Below are positions 1 to 41,797 of a stretch of DNA of 42,235 bases, in pieces; the stretch's first letter is position 1, and each line of letters begins with the position of its first letter. This stretch comes from Schwartzia sp. (in: firmicutes) (lineage in GTDB: Bacteria > Bacillota > Negativicutes > Selenomonadales > Selenomonadaceae). Location: the NCBI GenBank assembly GCA_017458745.1, contig JAFTAB010000082.1, positions 1-42,235 on the forward strand, given 5' to 3'. Under the pieces are notes generated by a model. It did no database searches, was not told the DNA's origin, and saw only the letters and a list, made by a program, of their open reading frames with translations. Position numbers and translations under genes: made by a program.

Positions 1-216
1 CTTGAGGAAGCGATTTCAGCGATTTTGCCCATCGTGGCTGAGCTCAACGAGGCGGAGTGGACGAGCATTGCAAGCCAAGTCGGATATATGTATAAGGCAA
101 AAGCCGCCAAGGTGACGCTTGACGGCTCGGAAATGGAGAGCCTAAACAGGAGGCTCCGTTGCAATGTTCTTGGCGAATCTTTTCATAAGGTTGCTATTCA
201 TTCACAATCTGAATGA
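1..216 (+). CDS. Hypothetical protein, 5'-truncated by the window edge
   Basis: An open frame runs from the first base to a stop at 214-216. An internal TTG at 25 is the only evident start, so the gene probably begins upstream of the window. The visible part is charged and helical, with a NEAEW segment and a Lys/Ala-rich stretch. I do not recognise a family. Its 3' end overlaps the convergent minus-strand gene by 23 nt. Confidence 0.5.
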   Translation, partial: LEEAISAILPIVAELNEAEWTSIASQVGYMYKAKAAKVTLDGSEMESLNRRLRCNVLGESFHKVAIHSQSE

Positions 217-433
217 ATATGGGATTGATGCGATAATCTTTGCCCTTGTAATAGATGTTGACATAAGGCATTTGGTAAAGCGTGTTCTCGTTGTCGGGCT
301 TGAAAGGGTTCCATATGGGGGCGTCGTTTTCCCACCATTCCGAGGGTGAAAGTTTTGCTTCATCAATTAGGCAATGCGGGTCATCGTTAAGGCAGACCCA
401 GTCGCCGAGTAGGCAAGCGTATATTTTTTTCAT
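194..433 (-). CDS. Small conserved phage protein (79 aa), hypothetical
   Basis: A minus-strand gene with a very strong ribosome site (AAGGAGGTGA, 6 nt before ATG) and an extended -10 (TGCTATAAT) just upstream. The product is aromatic-rich: it opens MKKIYACLLGDWVCLNDD, has an SPSEWW segment, and ends in a tyrosine-rich YYKGKDYRINP stretch. The pattern resembles short hypothetical proteins I associate with prophages of diderm Firmicutes, but no function can be given. Its leader belongs to a regulatory cassette duplicated at 1442-1497, and it is transcribed away from the gene at 497. Confidence 0.8.
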   Translation of the reverse strand: MKKIYACLLGDWVCLNDDPHCLIDEAKLSPSEWWENDAPIWNPFKPDNENTLYQMPYVNIYYKGKDYRINPIFIQIVNE

Positions 434-491
434 GATTGTTCACCTCCTTAGGTGAACATTATAGCATACAAAGGGAACGAGTGAGAGGAGG
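434..491. promoter_or_regulatory. Divergent regulatory cassette, copy 1
   Basis: Positions 458-491 are a 34-bp sequence repeated exactly at 1464-1497. On the minus strand it gives an extended -10, TGCTATAAT (TATAAT on the complement of 458-463). On the plus strand it ends in GAGAGGAGG, the ribosome site for the gene at 497. Between the -10 and the minus-strand ATG lies the inverted repeat GTTCACC-6 nt-GGTGAAC, which contains that gene's ribosome site. The palindrome could be an operator over the start site or an RNA hairpin hiding the ribosome site. Confidence 0.65.
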
Positions 492-496
492 CGACG

Positions 497-811
497 ATGT
501 TGGAGATTGACAGCGTTGTTATTGATGCGGTGAAGTACACGGTTGAGAGGACGGATATTCCGATTATTGTTGATGGGGAGCAGTGCAGGGGGGATGTGGA
601 TTACAATTTGGCACGTATAAGGCTTTCGTCCAATATGGAGGGGGCAGGGCGCGAGCCGCAGACTTTGATGCACGAGATTGTACACGCGATGATGTACGAG
701 CGCGATATTGAGGAGTGCAATAATGAGCGCGTCGTCAACTCTATTGCTAGTGGGGTTATAAATCTTATATGCAATAATCCTGAGCTTGTTAAGTTTATTT
801 CTACGAGATAA
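497..811 (+). CDS. Short zincin-like metallopeptidase (ImmA/IrrE-like)
   Basis: A 104-aa product carrying HEIVHAM at residues 59-65. This is the HExxH zinc site of gluzincin-type peptidases as found in ImmA/IrrE proteins. ImmA-type proteases cleave phage repressors to switch on phage or ICE genes. Short HExxH proteins of this size are common in phage early regions. There is no HTH domain. An acidic segment after HExxH (ERDIEECNNERVVN) could supply the third ligand. The start is the ATG 5 nt after GAGGAGGCGAC. The family call rests on the motif; the target is unknown. Confidence 0.65.
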   Translation: MLEIDSVVIDAVKYTVERTDIPIIVDGEQCRGDVDYNLARIRLSSNMEGAGREPQTLMHEIVHAMMYERDIEECNNERVVNSIASGVINLICNNPELVKFISTR

Positions 812-835
812 AAAAACAGGACGCAGTGCGCGTCC
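811..835 (-). terminator. Rho-independent terminator for the 850-984 minus-strand gene
   Basis: The stem GGACGC/GCGTCC (819-824 and 830-835) is followed, reading on the minus strand, by a run of T residues (complement of the A run at 809-816). It overlaps the stop codon of the plus-strand gene. Confidence 0.7.
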
Positions 836-849
836 CGCTCGGATAATAA

Positions 850-984
850 TTATTTGTTTTTCTTGGATGGACTTTGTGAGAGGGCACTTCCAGCGGCGGT
901 CTTTGAGGCTTTGCTGGTTCGCTTGTCGCGCAGGACTTTTGAGGCGGCTTTTGCGGCCGCGGCGGATGTTACTTTGTTAGCCAT
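850..984 (-). CDS. 44-aa basic Ser/Ala/Lys-rich small protein
   Basis: A minus-strand gene reading MANKVTSAAAAKAASKVLRD at its start, then RTSKASKTAAGSALSQ and a basic tail. The ribosome site AAAGGAGATGAG precedes the ATG at 984-982, and a terminator lies just past the stop. I recognise a widespread small-protein pattern (SKxLRDxxTSKxxKxAAGSALSQ) found on plasmids, phages and chromosomes, to which I can assign no function. Its own ribosome site and terminator make it a stand-alone transcription unit, possibly expressed in the lysogen. Confidence 0.8.
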   Translation of the reverse strand: MANKVTSAAAAKAASKVLRDKRTSKASKTAAGSALSQSPSKKNK

Positions 985-1105
985 AGGCTCATCTCCTTTC
1001 TATTAAAGTTCTGCTTGTATTTTATCACAGGAATAGATGGAAAAACAAGCGTTTTACACAATATGTAGTGGCAAGGCGAAAAATTTGAGAGGAGGCGACT
1101 ATGCG

Positions 1106-1258
1106 ATGAAAATCATCATCGAGGGCGAGCCGAAAGAAATAGCCGCGCTGCTGGGAACAGAGCGGCAATCTGAAGAAAGTGAAACGGAAAAAGCAAAGGA
1201 AAGTTTTGAAAAGAAATTTATTGAGATGATGGAGAGTCGCAAAGCAGCTTACTCATGA
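1106..1258 (+). CDS. Hypothetical 50-aa protein
   Basis: It starts at ATG 1106, preceded by GAGAGGAGGCGAC, a ribosome-site context nearly identical to that of the gene at 497. An earlier in-frame ATG at 1037 has no ribosome site. The ATG at 1101 is closed by TGA after two codons. The product is MKIIIEGEPKEIAALLGTER followed by a Glu/Lys-rich helix. The opening resembles small phage proteins of unknown role. Its 3' end overlaps the convergent gene at 1218. Confidence 0.65.
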   Translation: MKIIIEGEPKEIAALLGTERQSEESETEKAKESFEKKFIEMMESRKAAYS

Positions 1259-1439
1259 CATCGAATAGGTATTCTCGATTGTAGGTGTTCATGACAATAA
1301 CTGCTGTGCTTAGAAAATCCCAGTTGGTAGCTTTTTCGCCAGCAAGCTCACGAACTTCTTTAATGAAATTTTCTTTCAATTTTTTGTCAGCTTTTGCGTC
1401 AGCGTCAAGAAAAATTTGACGTAATTCTTCTTTGGTCAT
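1218..1439 (-). CDS. Hypothetical 73-aa helical protein
   Basis: A minus-strand gene with the strong ribosome site AAAGGAGGTGA, 6 nt from ATG. The N-terminal half is Lys/Asp/Glu-rich and probably helical. The C-terminal half has a hydrophobic FLSTAVIVMNTY segment. It is not recognisable as a known family and not similar to the minus-strand gene at 194, although both sit downstream of the same duplicated promoter cassette. Confidence 0.75.
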   Translation of the reverse strand: MTKEELRQIFLDADAKADKKLKENFIKEVRELAGEKATNWDFLSTAVIVMNTYNREYLFDVMSKLLCDSPSSQ

Positions 1440-1497
1440 TTTGGTTCACCTCCTTTCGAGGTGATTATAGCATACAAAGGGAACGAGTGAGAGGAGG
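1440..1497. promoter_or_regulatory. Divergent regulatory cassette, copy 2
   Basis: Positions 1464-1497 are identical to 458-491. On the minus strand TGCTATAAT serves the gene ending at 1218. On the plus strand the copy supplies GAGAGGAGG ahead of the gene at 1505. Between the -10 and the minus-strand ATG is the inverted repeat TCACCTC-5 nt-GAGGTGA (1445-1463), which again includes the ribosome site. The spacer and loop differ from copy 1 while the palindromic design is kept. Confidence 0.65.
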
Positions 1498-1504
1498 AAA
1501 GGTC

Positions 1505-1807
1505 ATGTATGTGTCAGCGTCAAAGTTTGCAAAGATTGTCGGGCTGTCTTACCCGGTCATTCTTGAGATGTGCAACTCGAATGTGATGCCGCATATCCAG
1601 TGCGGCGCGACTGGCAGGAAAAGGGTGATTGATGTCGAGGAAGGCAAAAAGGCTTTAAGCGAGATCGCGCATAGCCCGGCGAACAAGAAGAGAACGAAGC
1701 GATACCATGAGCCGCATGTTGACTTGATGGACGGGCTGGCGGAGCTGCGAAAGCAGATTGATGAGAGGGCGGCGCAGGACGCCATTCAGGCGGCATCAGA
1801 GAGCTAG
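1505..1807 (+). CDS. Probable DNA-binding protein (MerR/excisionase-like wHTH)
   Basis: A 100-aa product starting at ATG 1505, after GAGAGGAGG and 7 nt of spacing. Residues 1-50 read as a winged helix: VSASKFAKIVGLSYPVILEM (helix-turn-helix) followed by a GRKRVIDVEEGKKAL wing and helix. This order is typical of excisionase or MerR-like modules. The basic KKRTKR segment and C-terminal helix could help oligomerisation. It may act as an early regulator or recombination directionality factor. The fold call is from pattern only. Confidence 0.6.
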   Translation: MYVSASKFAKIVGLSYPVILEMCNSNVMPHIQCGATGRKRVIDVEEGKKALSEIAHSPANKKRTKRYHEPHVDLMDGLAELRKQIDERAAQDAIQAASES

Positions 1808-1833
1808 GCAATAGTAAGGAGGAGAGGGAAAAA

Positions 1834-2055
1834 GTGAAGATTATCATGATGAAGCGTTATGACGACGAGAGCCGGACGACAAACGACCGGGTGACGATAA
1901 TGGTCACGCAGAGCAAAGGAAGGCATATCGTCACAGCGCAGGGAGCCGGTGATGAATGCCCTATGATGGCATCGGCGAAAGACGAGGCAGAGGCGATGGG
2001 GATGCTGGAATGGTCAAGGGGCTTGCTTGAGCTCGGCGGGTTCGAGGAATCATGA
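1834..2055 (+). CDS. Hypothetical 73-aa protein
   Basis: It begins at GTG 1834, preceded by AAGGAGGAG. The product has alternating beta-type stretches (RVTIMVTQSK, RHIVTAQG) and an acidic C-terminal helix (AKDEAEAMGMLEW). It overlaps the next gene's ATG by 4 nt, showing it belongs to the rightward early operon. No family recognised. Confidence 0.65.
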   Translation: MKIIMMKRYDDESRTTNDRVTIMVTQSKGRHIVTAQGAGDECPMMASAKDEAEAMGMLEWSRGLLELGGFEES

Positions 2056-2264
2056 GCAGGGTTTGCCCGATATGCGGTAAATCGTTCGAGCCTAGCTATC
2101 ACAGGCGTAAGTATTGCTCTCATGAGTGCCTCATAGCCGCAAGAAGGCTGCCGAGTAGCTCGTACTTTGTTGACGAGATAAAGGCGAAGGCGACCGAGCC
2201 GGAGAAAAGCGAGACGCTGGTGAGCCATGACGGAATTATTGACGTGTGGTCGCGGGGGATTTAA
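2052..2264 (+). CDS. Zinc-ribbon small protein A
   Basis: A 70-aa protein with CPICGKSF near the N-terminus and YCSHEC about 15 residues later, giving a CxxC...CxxxC zinc-binding site. A Lys/Glu-rich tail follows. It is coupled to the upstream gene by ATGA overlap. Such FYVE/DUF2116-like short zinc ribbons often occur in phage early regions as putative nucleic-acid-binding or host-takeover proteins. It is similar in motif and layout to the next gene. Confidence 0.7.
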   Translation: MSRVCPICGKSFEPSYHRRKYCSHECLIAARRLPSSSYFVDEIKAKATEPEKSETLVSHDGIIDVWSRGI

Positions 2265-2268
2265 TGAT

Positions 2269-2442
2269 ATGGATTACCATCGCTATGAATACAAGTGCCC
2301 CGTATGCGGGAAAAGTTTCAAAGGCAGGGTCAATCAAATTTACTGCTCGAAAGAATGCCGCTACGAGGCGGTGAAGAATCCAAGGGTTTTGATGGGGGAG
2401 ATTAAGCATGACAAAGGAAAAACGCGAGATACGATTTCATAA
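2269..2442 (+). CDS. Zinc-ribbon small protein B (paralogue of A)
   Basis: A 57-aa product from ATG 2269, with GGGGGA about 10 nt upstream. CPVCGKSF and YCSKECR repeat the CxxC...CxxxC layout of the neighbour, and the segment after it (VLMGEIKH) parallels FVDEIKA in protein A. A local tandem duplication is inferred. Its 3' end overlaps the next gene by 35 nt. Confidence 0.65.
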   Translation: MDYHRYEYKCPVCGKSFKGRVNQIYCSKECRYEAVKNPRVLMGEIKHDKGKTRDTIS

Positions 2443-2581
2443 GCGGCTGGGGATAAGGGAAATTCGCATTGCGAGGAAAGTGGACGAGTTCCTAGATGAT
2501 GCTCGGTATCATTTTGAATGCGGACTTTACACTGTCACCTGCGTGTTGCTTGCTTTGCTCTGCATCGGAGCCGGACGATGA
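2408..2581 (+). CDS. Small membrane protein, 57 aa
   Basis: Begins ATG 2408. The first 35 residues are strongly basic (MTKEKREIRFHKRLGIREIR) and are followed by a hydrophobic segment around residues 40-55 (YTVTCVLLALLCIGAG). This suggests a single C-terminal transmembrane helix with a cytosolic basic domain. It ends in an ATGA overlap with the next small membrane gene. Function unknown. Confidence 0.5.
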   Translation: MTKEKREIRFHKRLGIREIRIARKVDEFLDDARYHFECGLYTVTCVLLALLCIGAGR

Positions 2582-2697
2582 GAGATTTGGATAACTGGCT
2601 GGAGGAGACCTGTATATTTTCCGTCTTGGGAGGGGTGCTCGGGTTTATTTTCAGCTATGTGGTTGGATTCCTCGCGATGGCGATGGACTGGAGGTGA
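2578..2697 (+). CDS. Small membrane protein, 39 aa
   Basis: ATG 2578 overlaps the preceding stop (ATGA). The product begins MRDLDNWLEETCIFSVLGG and continues as one hydrophobic span, VLGFIFSYVVGFLAM, ending in MDWR. It stops at 2697, overlapping the GTG at 2694. Translational coupling on both sides supports it as a real gene despite its size. Function unknown. Confidence 0.5.
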   Translation: MRDLDNWLEETCIFSVLGGVLGFIFSYVVGFLAMAMDWR

Positions 2698-2951
2698 AAA
2701 AGACGAGGATGACAAAGAAGATGATGACGCGCAGGGACGCGATTACGGGGCAGAGGGCTCTAAGGGTAATACTCATAGAGCAATTTGGATATTCCGAGGA
2801 TGACGGGGCTGTGATGGCCCTCGACCGAGGAATATGGGAAATGCGCCGTGCCGGAGACCTCGACCGAAAGATGTCGATGAGGGCAAGGCAGGAAAAGAAA
2901 AGGCAAAAGAAAAACACCGCTGACGATGCGAACGTCAGCGGCGCAAATTGA
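2694..2951 (+). CDS. Hypothetical 85-aa basic protein
   Basis: Starts at GTG 2694, overlapping the upstream TGA. ATG 2709 is an alternative start. The product is rich in Arg, Lys and Met, with ITGQRALRVILIEQFGYSED followed by helical basic segments and an RQEKKRQKK cluster, possibly nucleic-acid binding. It is the last gene of the early small-gene cluster and is followed by two hairpins. Confidence 0.55.
   Translation: MKKTRMTKKMMTRRDAITGQRALRVILIEQFGYSEDDGAVMALDRGIWEMRRAGDLDRKMSMRARQEKKRQKKNTADDANVSGAN
2917..2941 (-). terminator. Hairpin with minus-strand T run
   Basis: A perfect 9-bp stem CCGCTGACG/CGTCAGCGG with a 7-nt loop lies inside the 3' end of the 2694 gene. The T run is on the minus strand (complement of AAAGAAAAACA), so it would terminate leftward transcription. 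No leftward gene lies nearby, so the role is unclear. Confidence 0.4.
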
Positions 2952-2972
2952 AAACACTGGTAAGAGTTTTCT

Positions 2973-3010
2973 GCACGGGGGGCAAAATATACCCGCCGTG
3001 CCTCTATTTT
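2973..3010 (+). terminator. Candidate terminator/attenuator before the 3029 gene
   Basis: The stem GCACGG-GGG / CCC-CCGTGC (2973-2982 with 2992-3001, one G-G mismatch) has an AT-rich loop and is followed by CTCTATTTTA. It lies just ahead of the next ribosome site (GAGGTGAG), as do several later terminators in this prophage. Confidence 0.45.
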
Positions 3011-3028
3011 ACAACAGAGGTGAGTTTT

Positions 3029-3370
3029 ATGTCAATGGTTTCTCAATTATACAAGTATTATCAGGAGCATCCCGAATCCGATAATAAGACTGTCGGTCGT
3101 GATTTGGATTGGGAGGACTGGCAGGTGAAGCAGCAGAAGTGCAAGCTGAAGACGCGGGGCTTCATCACAGTTAATGATGACGGCACTGTCGCCATTGCTA
3201 GGCCTATGGCTCTTGAGGATGTCGAGCCTGTCACCCGCAAGTACAAGCTGGAGATATATCGAGGGCTTATCGCGGAGATGAGGGAGAGGCTTGAAAGCGA
3301 GAACACCACGAACAAGGAAGCGATAGAAATTTGTCGCGAGATAAGAATAATGATGAAGGAAATTTTTTAA
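3029..3370 (+). CDS. Hypothetical 113-aa protein, possible winged-helix
   Basis: Starts at ATG 3029, preceded by GAGGTGAG. Residues 1-60 (QLYKYYQEHPESDNKTVGRD, then KQQKCKLKTRGFITVNDDG) resemble a short HTH with a wing. The remainder is a long charged helix, REIRIMMKEIF at the end. It is the first gene of the replication block. Function not assigned. Confidence 0.6.
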   Translation: MSMVSQLYKYYQEHPESDNKTVGRDLDWEDWQVKQQKCKLKTRGFITVNDDGTVAIARPMALEDVEPVTRKYKLEIYRGLIAEMRERLESENTTNKEAIEICREIRIMMKEIF

Positions 3371-3383
3371 GGGAGGAATTATT

Positions 3384-3809
3384 TTGAGTTCTTTGGACAT
3401 CAACATCAATTTTAATGTGCGCGGCCTTGAGCCTGTTATCGCGTCAATGGAGAGGCTGACGCGCGTCATGGAGACATTCACCGCTCCGCTGGAGATTGAC
3501 GCGGCGAGACCTGTCGAGGTACTGCCCGCGCCCGCGCCTGAGAAGAAGGAGCCGAAAAAGAAAGCGGAGCCGAAGGCTGATAAGCCAAAGCCGGAGGACA
3601 AGCCGAAGCAGGAAAAGCCCGCCGAAAATGGCGAGAGCTTGACCGAGGAGGAGCAGCTCGCGATAAGGGGCAAGGCGAGGGACTTCATGCAGCAGGGCGA
3701 TGAGAACAAGGCCGCAGTGAGGGACTGGCTGAAGGCGAACAGCATTGAGCGCGTGACGCTGATGCCGAGGTCGCTGCTGCCGGAGTTTGACAAGCTGATA
3801 GGGGCGTGA
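3384..3809 (+). CDS. Hypothetical 141-aa protein with Lys/Pro/Glu linker
   Basis: Starts at TTG 3384, after GGGAGGAATT. Residues 1-40 form a helical head. Residues 48-80 are a low-complexity Pro/Lys/Glu linker (PAPEKKEPKKKAEPKADKPK). Residues 85-141 form a second helical domain with EEEQLAIRGKARDFMQQG and a C-terminal LPEFDKLIG. The last part resembles helical domains of phage proteins encoded next to DUF2800/DUF2815 genes. It may bind a partner in replication, but this is only inferred from position. Confidence 0.65.
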   Translation: MSSLDININFNVRGLEPVIASMERLTRVMETFTAPLEIDAARPVEVLPAPAPEKKEPKKKAEPKADKPKPEDKPKQEKPAENGESLTEEEQLAIRGKARDFMQQGDENKAAVRDWLKANSIERVTLMPRSLLPEFDKLIGA

Positions 3810-4954
3810 TGGGATTGGCCGAAAAACATGCGATGCTCTCGGCGAGCGCGTCACACCGATGGATGCAATGCACCCCGTCGGCGATGCTGGAGTCCAGGCT
3901 GCCGGAGCAGACCTCCTCATTCGCGGAGGAAGGAACGGAAGCGCACGGCATGGCGGAGTCGCGCCTGGATTATTATCTGAGGCATGGCAAGATGATGAAA
4001 AGATATAAGAAATGCGAGGACGAGAATGCCGAGATGTGGGAGACTGTCGGCGAGTACGTTGATATTTGCATAGAAAAAATCAACAAGGCCCGCGCGTCAT
4101 GCAAGGACGCCACTATAAATATCGAGCAGCGTCTTGATTTCTCGCCATGGGTTCCTGAAGGATTCGGCACAGGCGATTGCGTGATTATAGCTGACGACAT
4201 GCTTGAGGTTATTGACCTTAAATATGGCAAGGGCGTCGAGGTCTCTGCTCACGGCAATACTCAGATGATGCTGTATGCCCTGGGCGCGCTCAATGAGTTC
4301 GGGATTCTTTACAGCTTCAGCAAAATTCAGATGACTATCGTCCAGCCTCGCATCAATAATATTTCCTCGGAAATCATCGATGTCGATGAGCTGAAGGAGT
4401 GGGGCGAGAAGATAAAGCCCATAGCTCAGAAGGCATTCAAGGGCGAGGGCGAGAAGACGGCGGGCGAGCATTGCCGATTCTGCAAGTGCAGGGCGACGTG
4501 CAGGACTAGAGCCGAATACATGACGGAGTCGATAAAAGAGGATTTCGCGGCGAGCGACCTGACGGATGATGAGATTGCAGGCATCATACTGAAGGCGCAG
4601 GCCATTAAGAGATGGCTGGAGGACGTGGAGAGCTACGCGCTGGCGAAGGCTCTTGACGGGCAGAGCTGGCCGGGGCTGAAGCTGGTCGAGGGACGAAGCA
4701 ACAGGAAGATTACTGACATAACTGGCGCGGCAAAGGCTCTGAGCGAGGCGGGCTATGATGACATTTTCAAGCCGCAGGAGCTGAAGTCTATCACGGAGCT
4801 GGAGAAGCTCACCGGAAAGAAGAGGTTCGCGGAGATAATGAACGGCTACATCGAAAAGCCGAGGGGCAAGGCAACGCTGGTGTCCGAGAGCGACAAGAGG
4901 CCAGCAATGGAGATTGAAAGCATCAAAGATTTGTTCACAGACGATTTTGATTAA
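3806..4954 (+). CDS. DUF2800 family, PD-(D/E)XK nuclease-like protein
   Basis: A product of about 380 aa, starting at GTG 3806 or the adjacent ATG 3809, coupled to the upstream stop. GTGDCVI followed by LEVIDLKYGKG gives the D...(E/D)xK nuclease core, and the following GNTQMMLYALGAL helix is typical of the RecB-like fold. A cysteine cluster (CRFCKCRATC, about residue 220) may bind a metal or Fe-S site as in Cas4/AddB relatives. DUF2800 genes regularly sit beside DUF2815 and a phage DNA polymerase, as here. A recombination or end-processing role is inferred. Confidence 0.87.
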   Translation: MMGLAEKHAMLSASASHRWMQCTPSAMLESRLPEQTSSFAEEGTEAHGMAESRLDYYLRHGKMMKRYKKCEDENAEMWETVGEYVDICIEKINKARASCKDATINIEQRLDFSPWVPEGFGTGDCVIIADDMLEVIDLKYGKGVEVSAHGNTQMMLYALGALNEFGILYSFSKIQMTIVQPRINNISSEIIDVDELKEWGEKIKPIAQKAFKGEGEKTAGEHCRFCKCRATCRTRAEYMTESIKEDFAASDLTDDEIAGIILKAQAIKRWLEDVESYALAKALDGQSWPGLKLVEGRSNRKITDITGAAKALSEAGYDDIFKPQELKSITELEKLTGKKRFAEIMNGYIEKPRGKATLVSESDKRPAMEIESIKDLFTDDFD

Positions 4955-4969
4955 GGAGGAGTTTTATCA

Positions 4970-5521
4970 ATGGCAGCATCAGTAAAGGTTACAACGGGAA
5001 AGGTACGTCTCAGCTATCCGCACATTTTCAAGACTCATGAAGACCCATCGGGCAAGGAGCAGTTCTCCGCGTCGCTCATCATACCAAAGAGCGACAAGCG
5101 CGGCGTGCAGAAAATAAAGGACGCTATAAGCGAGATGATGAGGGACAAGGACTGCCTGTCCAAGTGGGGTGGCAAGATTCCAAAGAAGTTTTGGAATCCG
5201 CTTCAGGATGGCGACGACAAGGACGATGCGGCATACGCGGACAGCTATTATATAAACGCGAAGGCGAATCCAGATTATCCGCCGAAGGTCTTTGACAAGG
5301 ACAGGAACGAGGTAGTTGACCCCAGCGAGGTTTACGCGGGCTGCTATGTGCAGGCTGTCATCAATCTTTACGCTTTCGCGGGTCAGTCGAACAGCGGGAT
5401 AGGCGTGGGACTCGCGGGCATAAGGAAGCTGGCGGACGGGGCTCCTCTCTCCGGCTCGACAATATCCGATGATGACTGGTCCGACGATTACGATGATTAT
5501 GATGTCGATGATTTAATCTGA
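4970..5521 (+). CDS. DUF2815 family, probable ssDNA-binding protein
   Basis: A 183-aa product from ATG 4970, with AAGGAGGAG upstream. It begins with a beta-type domain (VKVTTGKVRLSYPHIFKTHE, SASLIIPKSDK) that fits an OB fold. It ends in a strongly acidic tail (DDDWSDDYDDYDVDDL), the hallmark of single-stranded DNA-binding proteins such as T7 gp2.5, where the tail recruits replisome partners. It lies directly before the DNA polymerase. Family assignment is confident; the biochemical role is inferred. Confidence 0.87.
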   Translation: MAASVKVTTGKVRLSYPHIFKTHEDPSGKEQFSASLIIPKSDKRGVQKIKDAISEMMRDKDCLSKWGGKIPKKFWNPLQDGDDKDDAAYADSYYINAKANPDYPPKVFDKDRNEVVDPSEVYAGCYVQAVINLYAFAGQSNSGIGVGLAGIRKLADGAPLSGSTISDDDWSDDYDDYDVDDLI

Positions 5522-39858: not shown

Positions 39859-40448
39859 CGAACGAGGAACTGGCGAAAGAGATTGCAAACGGACTGATTG
39901 ACGGTGGATTCGAGGGAGGATTTGACGCGGTCTCATGCTCGACGGCGGGAGACTACCCGTCACTTGGCTGCTCACAGTGGGAGGGCGGCAGAGCAGATGA
40001 CCTCCTCTCGCGCATTGAGGGCGGCGATTACTACATTGGTCGCACGTACAGCGATATAGACGCGTCGGGTGAGCTTGATGCCTTGTCCGAGCTGCTTGAC
40101 AGTGAGCAGGGGCAGGATGCGCAGAGGGAAAAACTAGCCGAGGACACGCTTGATTATGTGGAGGCATTGACCGACATAGAGTGCTTCGATGATAGCCGGG
40201 CTATAATCTACGCCGGCATTTGGTGCCCGACGTCGACGTATGTCGTGACTCATTTTATTGCTCGCATGGCTGGTCGCGGCGAGAAAGTAAATGACCTTTA
40301 CACGCTTGCCATCATATTCAAGGAAGAGTATGCGCGAGCGGCTGGATGCGAGGAATACGCCGAGGGCTATGCCAACAGGGCGATGGGCACATATAACCTC
40401 GTGCGAGAGATGGATTTGTCCGAGTATGGTGTGCCGGAATATGATTGA
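39855..40448 (+). CDS. Probable endolysin with atypical lysozyme-like domain
   Basis: A 197-aa product. GGFEGGFDAVSCSTAGDYPS then LGCSQWEGGRADDLLSRIEG is a signature I associate with a peptidoglycan-hydrolase-type domain in anaerobe phages (GxYxSV...SxGxxQWxGxRAxxLL). E20 is a candidate catalytic acid. The rest is helical and acidic, with no signal peptide or cell-wall-binding repeat. Position between a holin candidate and the spanin-like pair supports endolysin. The enzymatic class is not certain. Confidence 0.65.
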   Translation: MTNEELAKEIANGLIDGGFEGGFDAVSCSTAGDYPSLGCSQWEGGRADDLLSRIEGGDYYIGRTYSDIDASGELDALSELLDSEQGQDAQREKLAEDTLDYVEALTDIECFDDSRAIIYAGIWCPTSTYVVTHFIARMAGRGEKVNDLYTLAIIFKEEYARAAGCEEYAEGYANRAMGTYNLVREMDLSEYGVPEYD

Positions 40449-41745: not shown

Positions 41746-41790
41746 CTCCTAAGCAGGGGGTCGGGCGTTCGAATCGCCCCAATCGCACCA
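41746..41790 (+). other. attR core: 3' half of tRNA-Arg(CCU)
   Basis: It starts at the anticodon loop CTCCTAA (anticodon CCT). It then reads GCAGG (3' anticodon stem), the variable loop, the T arm GGGCG-TTCGAAT-CGCCC, the 3' acceptor strand CAATCGC, discriminator A and CCA. The sequence before it has neither the 5' acceptor strand (GCGATTG) nor the matching CCTGC stem. It is therefore a remnant at the phage-host junction, not a functional tRNA. Confidence 0.88.
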
Positions 41791-41797
41791 TGTAAAA

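Follow-up and report, generated by a model that had tools for sequence, protein, structure and literature searches.

The window, meaning the whole 42,235-nucleotide stretch analysed here, is a contig on which genes for a helicase, terminase, portal, and tape measure are arranged in the plus direction. At its left end, the plus genes are broken up by three minus-strand genes, A, C, and B. The features of this region are given below, where SD denotes a Shine-Dalgarno ribosome site and the SDs and −10 elements are read from the sequence.

194–433, minus strand: gene A, 79 aa, PHROG 3240 (function unknown), E 4e-31, with homologues
425–491, no strand assigned: copy 1 of the cassette, a 67-nt repeat unit with 84% identity to copy 2 at a spacing of 1006
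437–458, minus strand: palindrome of copy 1, TGTTCACCT-AAGG-AGGTGAACA, 9-bp arms, fold −12.5 kcal/mol, z −4.84
443–449, minus strand: SD of gene A, AAGGAGG
449–451, minus strand: predicted transcription start of gene A, placed by −10 spacing about 7 nt past the −10, at the inner edge of the left arm/loop
458–466, minus strand: extended −10 TGCTATAAT of gene A
483–491, plus strand: SD of the plus gene 497–811, within copy 1
497–811, plus strand: gene of 104 aa, PHROG 1233, weak metallopeptidase-like Pfam matches below cut-off
814–840, minus strand: predicted intrinsic terminator 3′ of gene C, between B/C and A
850–984, minus strand: gene C, 44 aa, PHROG 5079, the third minus gene, with a leader lacking the SD palindrome
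1218–1439, minus strand: gene B, 73 aa, an open reading frame with no family match
1431–1497, no strand assigned: copy 2 of the cassette, from the repeat search, with the exact 34-bp core at 1464–1497
1446–1464, minus strand: palindrome of copy 2, TCACCTC-GAAAG-GAGGTGA, 7-bp arms, loop GAAAG, fold −11.5 kcal/mol, z −4.50
1449–1456, minus strand: SD of gene B, AAAGGAGG
1457, minus strand: predicted transcription start of gene B, the first base of the loop, placed by −10 spacing
1464–1472, minus strand: extended −10 TGCTATAAT of gene B
1489–1497, plus strand: SD of the plus gene 1505–1807, within copy 2
1505–1807, plus strand: gene of 100 aa, weak HTH_17 match below cut-off

Gene B has no match in PHROGs, Pfam, NCBIfam, PADLOC, or phage records, and an IMG/VR search with the 1505–1807 protein returned nothing usable. 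Rfam, searched with window positions 1–4000 at E ≤1, returned only sX13 at 2908–3022, which is under the gathering score and away from the cassettes. Near the right end of the contig, positions 41747–41794 resemble the 3′ end of a tRNA gene and are possibly an attachment site; ARAGORN found no complete tRNA at this end.

An earlier note, made from the letters of this DNA, had described a 34-bp block repeated at 458–491 and 1464–1497. The repeat is exact. A search of the window at up to three mismatches found no third copy, and 100 shuffles of the window gave 0 expected copies. The block is the core of the longer 67-nt repeat. In plus-strand order, each copy comprises the ATG and SD of the minus gene, the palindrome over this SD, the minus −10, and then the plus-gene SD and ATG. 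The distance from −10 to ATG is 24 nt in both copies, and in copy 1 the ATGs of the back-to-back genes are 63 bp apart. Both copies contain the extended −10, as the note stated; that it drives the minus gene is a prediction. The plus-gene ribosome site is also found inside each copy (483–491 and 1489–1497). The term divergent promoter is overstated, as the block holds the promoter of the minus gene only and the plus gene takes its SD there. The SDs of the back-to-back genes (443–491, 1449–1497) are so alike that either can base-pair across the cassette with the other's complement, in long RNA from both strands. The window DNA had no near match in phage records, and an IMG/VR search with a 22-nt piece of the block gave nothing usable.

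In each copy, a palindrome covers the SD between the −10 and the ATG and its letters differ by copy, as the note had described, with arms slightly longer than claimed. The palindrome of copy 2 reaches into the −10, using its final T. Conserved between the copies are the minus SD arm, the −10, and 28 nt upstream; the left, anti-SD arm is the sole palindrome arm that differs, lying in another register (GTTCACCT vs CACCTC), and it pairs in each. When leader-length sense RNAs were folded, none of the 200 shuffles folded as well as either copy. RNAs trimmed near the predicted start hardly fold (−2.7 and −0.3 kcal/mol). The hairpin is the minimum free energy (MFE) structure of a 71-nt RNA in both copies, yet with z of only −0.93 and −0.84, no better than shuffles. 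In longer RNA of copy 1, the centroid instead joins the gene-A SD to the complement of the plus-gene SD. Since this SD has an alternative long-range partner, the local hairpin would not be the sole lock on it.

The opposite strand bears on a further role. In early-operon RNA, the complement of the minus SD would, if left free, pair with the plus SD; the palindrome might sequester it and thereby shield the plus gene. The plus RNA of copy 1 does fold into the local hairpin, which does not involve the plus SD, but the MFE structure of the copy 2 plus RNA still pairs the antisense SD with the plus SD, the palindrome notwithstanding. Moreover, the C>T variants of the left arm described below are A·C mismatches in the plus RNA. 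We regard such shielding as highly improbable.

Homologues of gene A were found at 20 IMG/VR loci and 10 GTDB loci, in 31 phage records of Staphylococcus and Streptococcus, in two of 189 family genomes (window counted), and in five of 300 class genomes. The nearest same-family homologue is in genome G262. Gene A is opposed to both neighbours in all seven annotated phage stretches opened, and shares its strand with the repressor or integrase in all four stretches where either is annotated. Hence, gene A appears to stand alone on the side of the lysogeny genes. As the repressor side is not visible on the contig, these relatives are also the basis for taking the minus strand of the window as the lysogeny strand.

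The gene-A leaders are of four kinds. The first, the window type, places an anti-SD between the −10 and the SD; it occurs in the window, in Streptococcus phage Javan53, twice in G359, and in phage L350. Staphylococcus phages 3MRA and EW have a hairpin similar to the window type, with the left arm further downstream. The second kind, ACCTCCA..TGGAGGT, belongs to Selenomonas-type phages, and G262 has two such cassettes 841 bp apart, with a sequence quite unlike that of the window. The third is a long palindrome (L022 and L024), and the fourth is the ACAGG class, mostly of Clostridia phages. In four further leaders (L019, L038, L480, and L481), the −10 is clear and a hairpin is absent. With four kinds of leader and these hairpin-free ones, the palindrome is frequent, not universal, and its sequence is lineage-specific. 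Among 33 gene-A leaders folded, 21 have z < −1 and the mean z is −1.44, where the rows are not all independent (L022/L024, L037/L483, and L484/L487 are identical or nearly so) and folding of the ACAGG class is understated, as the −10 was misplaced in several of its leaders. On a Selenomonas-type contig (L008), positions 1759–1843 match skipping-rope RNA (RF02924) above the gathering score.

The earlier note had taken a palindrome kept with changed letters as a sign of selection for the structure, and had reasoned that the structure would be incidental to the ribosome site if related phages kept the −10 without it. The relatives support the first argument, most clearly phage L350, whose gene-A leader has TATAATCACCTCAGAAGGAGGTGA in place of the window's TATAATGTTCACCTAAGGAGGTGAAC; this phage has two window-type cassettes, one of them ahead of the gene-A homologue. 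On the second the outcome is mixed: leaders that keep the −10 often keep the palindrome with changed letters, as in L350, whereas the four hairpin-free leaders do not.

The cassette also recurs in other prophages, where the note had suggested looking for it: the form TATAAT/anti-SD/SD is present in 18 of 380 class genomes. Specifically, TATAATCACCTCGAAAGGAGGTGA at up to three mismatches gave 23 matches in these 18 genomes (window counted), compared with one match of the reversed control; inspection covered part of the matches. Two copies each are found in G362, G363, and G378, and three in G359, two of these close together. An identical leader in G035 lies ahead of another reversed gene, near a repressor-like gene, and G050 has four copies of a sister form ahead of four reversed genes, the last of which is followed by one predicted terminator. 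A weaker pattern used earlier on 60 genomes gave eight matches, two of them in the window, vs four for the control. A candidate with two mismatches to the block (L003, in G195) was dropped, being a different promoter-like sequence without a hairpin. The orientation test on the anti-SD class placed four of six usable rows against both neighbours, a number of rows too small to carry weight; eight further rows were unusable.

The complementarity exceeds chance expectation. With the left arm unconstrained, 14 of the 116 viral leaders listed have a stem score of at least 6, compared with a mean of 2.1 in shuffles (maximum 6 in 200 shuffles) and 3 with reversed arms. For 36 distinct anti-SD leaders, chosen by a pattern that requires the CACC/GGTG core, pairing outside this core has a mean of 3.75 vs 2.68 with partners permuted, and none of 1000 permutations reached the observed value. 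Eight of the 11 single-letter variants of the left arm are C>T, which keeps a U·G pair in the sense RNA only; the sample is small and some of its rows are perhaps related. That such a fold recurs in many phages with different letters suggests that the fold itself is selected. The feature is genuine and turns up repeatedly, and in window-type leaders the pairing appears, from these comparisons of sequence, to be under selection. A duplicated promoter with a strong SD, complementary by chance or drift, could account for the four hairpin-free leaders that keep their −10. With complementarity above both shuffles and permutations, and recurring across genera ahead of unrelated genes, we consider this incidental origin the least probable of the explanations.

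The arm geometry bears on the operator over the start point that the note had also proposed, taken here as a DNA site for a phage or host repressor. The palindromes do overlap the −10 and the start, and the copies within one phage are alike. However, the spacer between the arms ranges from 6 to 10 nt across the 36 anti-SD leaders, and the two window copies themselves disagree (TCACC-N6-GGTGA vs TCACC-N9-GGTGA). Such variable spacing speaks against a dimer operator, and the C>T changes of the left arm have no mirror change in the fixed right arm. The operator motif of LexA/DinR is CGAAC-N4-GTTCG; boxes of this type are absent from the cassettes, and in the window the motif has three matches with two mismatches, none at the cassettes, which is below chance. 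An operator is thus disfavoured, and we hold it to be quite improbable. The gap from −10 to arm core is 0–3 nt in all 36 leaders, a limit set partly by the pattern.

As the left arm fills the discriminator in the window, a transcript of the gene's own promoter is expected to begin within the loop or next to it. Because RNAs trimmed in this way hardly fold, only sense RNA started upstream should hide the SD. Our best reading, to which we give about even chances, is that of a lock by which the gene would be translated only off its own promoter. The cassette would be a compact intergenic module that gives a lone lysogeny-strand gene both an extended −10 promoter and a translation lock, with a discriminator (about −7 to −1) complementary to the gene's own SD. 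Sense RNA begun upstream would have the SD folded into a hairpin of 11–12 kcal/mol and be translated poorly, and own-promoter RNA, without the left arm, would be translated. The same block would be the SD source of the plus-strand early gene, and its reuse for several such genes per phage may stem from recombination or shared selection. Built on the computed repeat, structure, above-chance complementarity, recurrence, and orientation in relatives, the lock further presumes the start site, the hiding of the SD in vivo, and a benefit from it.

Hiding of the ribosome site in read-through RNA was among the suggestions of the note, and it is the mechanism we favour, as a proposal: the difference between full-leader and trimmed folds supports it, whereas 3MRA and EW oppose it. 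In these two phages, the left arm is located at the predicted start or past it, so that the own RNA would hide the SD too. For gene A there is also the predicted minus-strand terminator at 840–814, which separates B/C from A and would leave gene A with no obvious source of upstream RNA. The hairpin may instead work in the gene's own mRNA, as a 5′-end stabiliser, a thermometer, or a regulator target that opens or closes the SD. 3MRA and EW, with most of both arms at or after the predicted start, would suit this role, and so would the ACAGG class, in which the hairpin nearly always sets in 4 nt past the predicted 5′ end. In the window and its close relatives, however, the own RNA should lack the left arm, and RNA cut at the predicted start has little fold left. 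We consider an own-mRNA role unlikely on the whole, though with some real weight.

Several known systems resemble the proposed lock. IS10/IS50 transposase is protected from read-through: in RNA entering from outside, its ribosome site is hidden. The hiding structure is formed there by the ends of the element, whereas in the cassettes it would be formed by the promoter discriminator. PeSL stem-loops are terminators. No terminator-like site was predicted at 437–458 or 1446–1464, and the window hairpins are unlike PeSLs in that they are not called terminators. PeSL cassettes of T4-type phages, as described in a citing passage (PMC4503421), are small repeated promoter-plus-stem-loop modules tied to the shuffling of small genes, and are alike in being reusable. 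The nearest repeated start-site elements, going by excerpts of PMC3203893 and PMC12699233, are SAS/ESAS of Cluster K mycobacteriophages. In the excerpted PMC3203893, these are short start-site repeats with inverted repeats, of unknown function, at unrelated genes of one phage, and the ESAS differ from the cassettes in being 17-bp repeats just upstream of SAS, not over the ribosome site. The 13-bp SAS GGGATAGGAGCCC is absent from the cassettes; its one two-mismatch match in the window (5439–5451) is at chance level.

The closest likeness is to T4 gene e. According to passages of PMC3014915, late transcripts of this gene are without the structure's 5′ strand and are translated well; for gene e, as for soc, 49, and I-TevI, the 5′ strand of the SD hairpin lies at the gene's own promoter and is absent from its own transcripts. 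Here, the leader-length RNA likewise has the SD paired in a stable hairpin of upstream-begun RNA, and the lack of the 5′ strand in own-promoter RNA is predicted from the −10 spacing, with a different geometry in 3MRA and EW. The T4 cases concern late promoters and same-direction genes of a lytic phage. The window, by contrast, has an ordinary extended −10, lone reversed prophage genes, and a repeated module.

The fourth kind of leader extends beyond gene A. In Clostridia phages the gene-A leader is ACAGG-stem-loop-CCGAGTA directly past the −10, and the same leader precedes many unrelated small reversed phage genes. Carriers are L014–L018, L020, L021, L030, L034–L036, L039, L041, and many of L061–L278, with at least four copies in L034. 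A first scan was too loose and gave many chance matches; counts from a second scan with a −10 filter are at least 141 distinct matches, at least 129 of them with a −10. Among the matches listed, the distance from −10 to ACAGG is exactly 6 nt in 125 of 129, which places the predicted start on the first A of ACAGG. In 32 rows with 5-bp stems among the matches listed, 98.1% of cells are paired, 34 carry a change on each side, and covariation scores 0.583 vs 0.118 shuffled (0/500); 26 rows with 4-bp stems among the matches listed score 0.435 vs 0.106 (0/500). In these scores only pairs 3 to 5 are free of the search pattern. The genes behind the leader oppose both neighbours in 84 of 102 usable cases among the matches listed (26 unusable), against a baseline of 246 of 1628 genes at the same loci.

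Rfam had no match to this leader in the loci scanned, and a text search found no related literature reports. The ACAGG pattern gave 0 matches in 250 genomes related to the host of the window, vs four for the reversed control. In the window itself it has no match, and two weak model matches (2101–2157 and 40375–40426) are away from the cassettes. Pairing of the ACAGG discriminator with downstream sequence found no clear support: the mean stem is 3.61 vs 3.36 permuted (sd of means 0.07, top 3.63), and kinship among the rows could explain the difference. L228, L242, L244, and L276 share a near-identical ACAGGCAAGGGGAAGCCGAGTAA form with a −10, downstream of which no open reading frame was found.

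We propose, with confidence evenly divided, that structured start leaders arose on more than one occasion in temperate phages of Firmicutes and mark their lone reversed genes. One would be the anti-SD discriminator family, for translation from the own promoter only. The other would be an undescribed covarying 5′-end RNA, ACAGG-stem-CCGAGTA with a hexaloop mostly near CUGCCA, which dozens of small, mutually unrelated genes have in common and which one shared factor may bind. For many of the small reversed genes in temperate phages, no function is known. If start leaders tie translation to the own promoter, they would form a common control layer for lysogeny-time genes, and would offer a simple sequence mark for finding such genes. 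The ACAGG hairpin, with its strong covariation, would be a common phage RNA awaiting a function.
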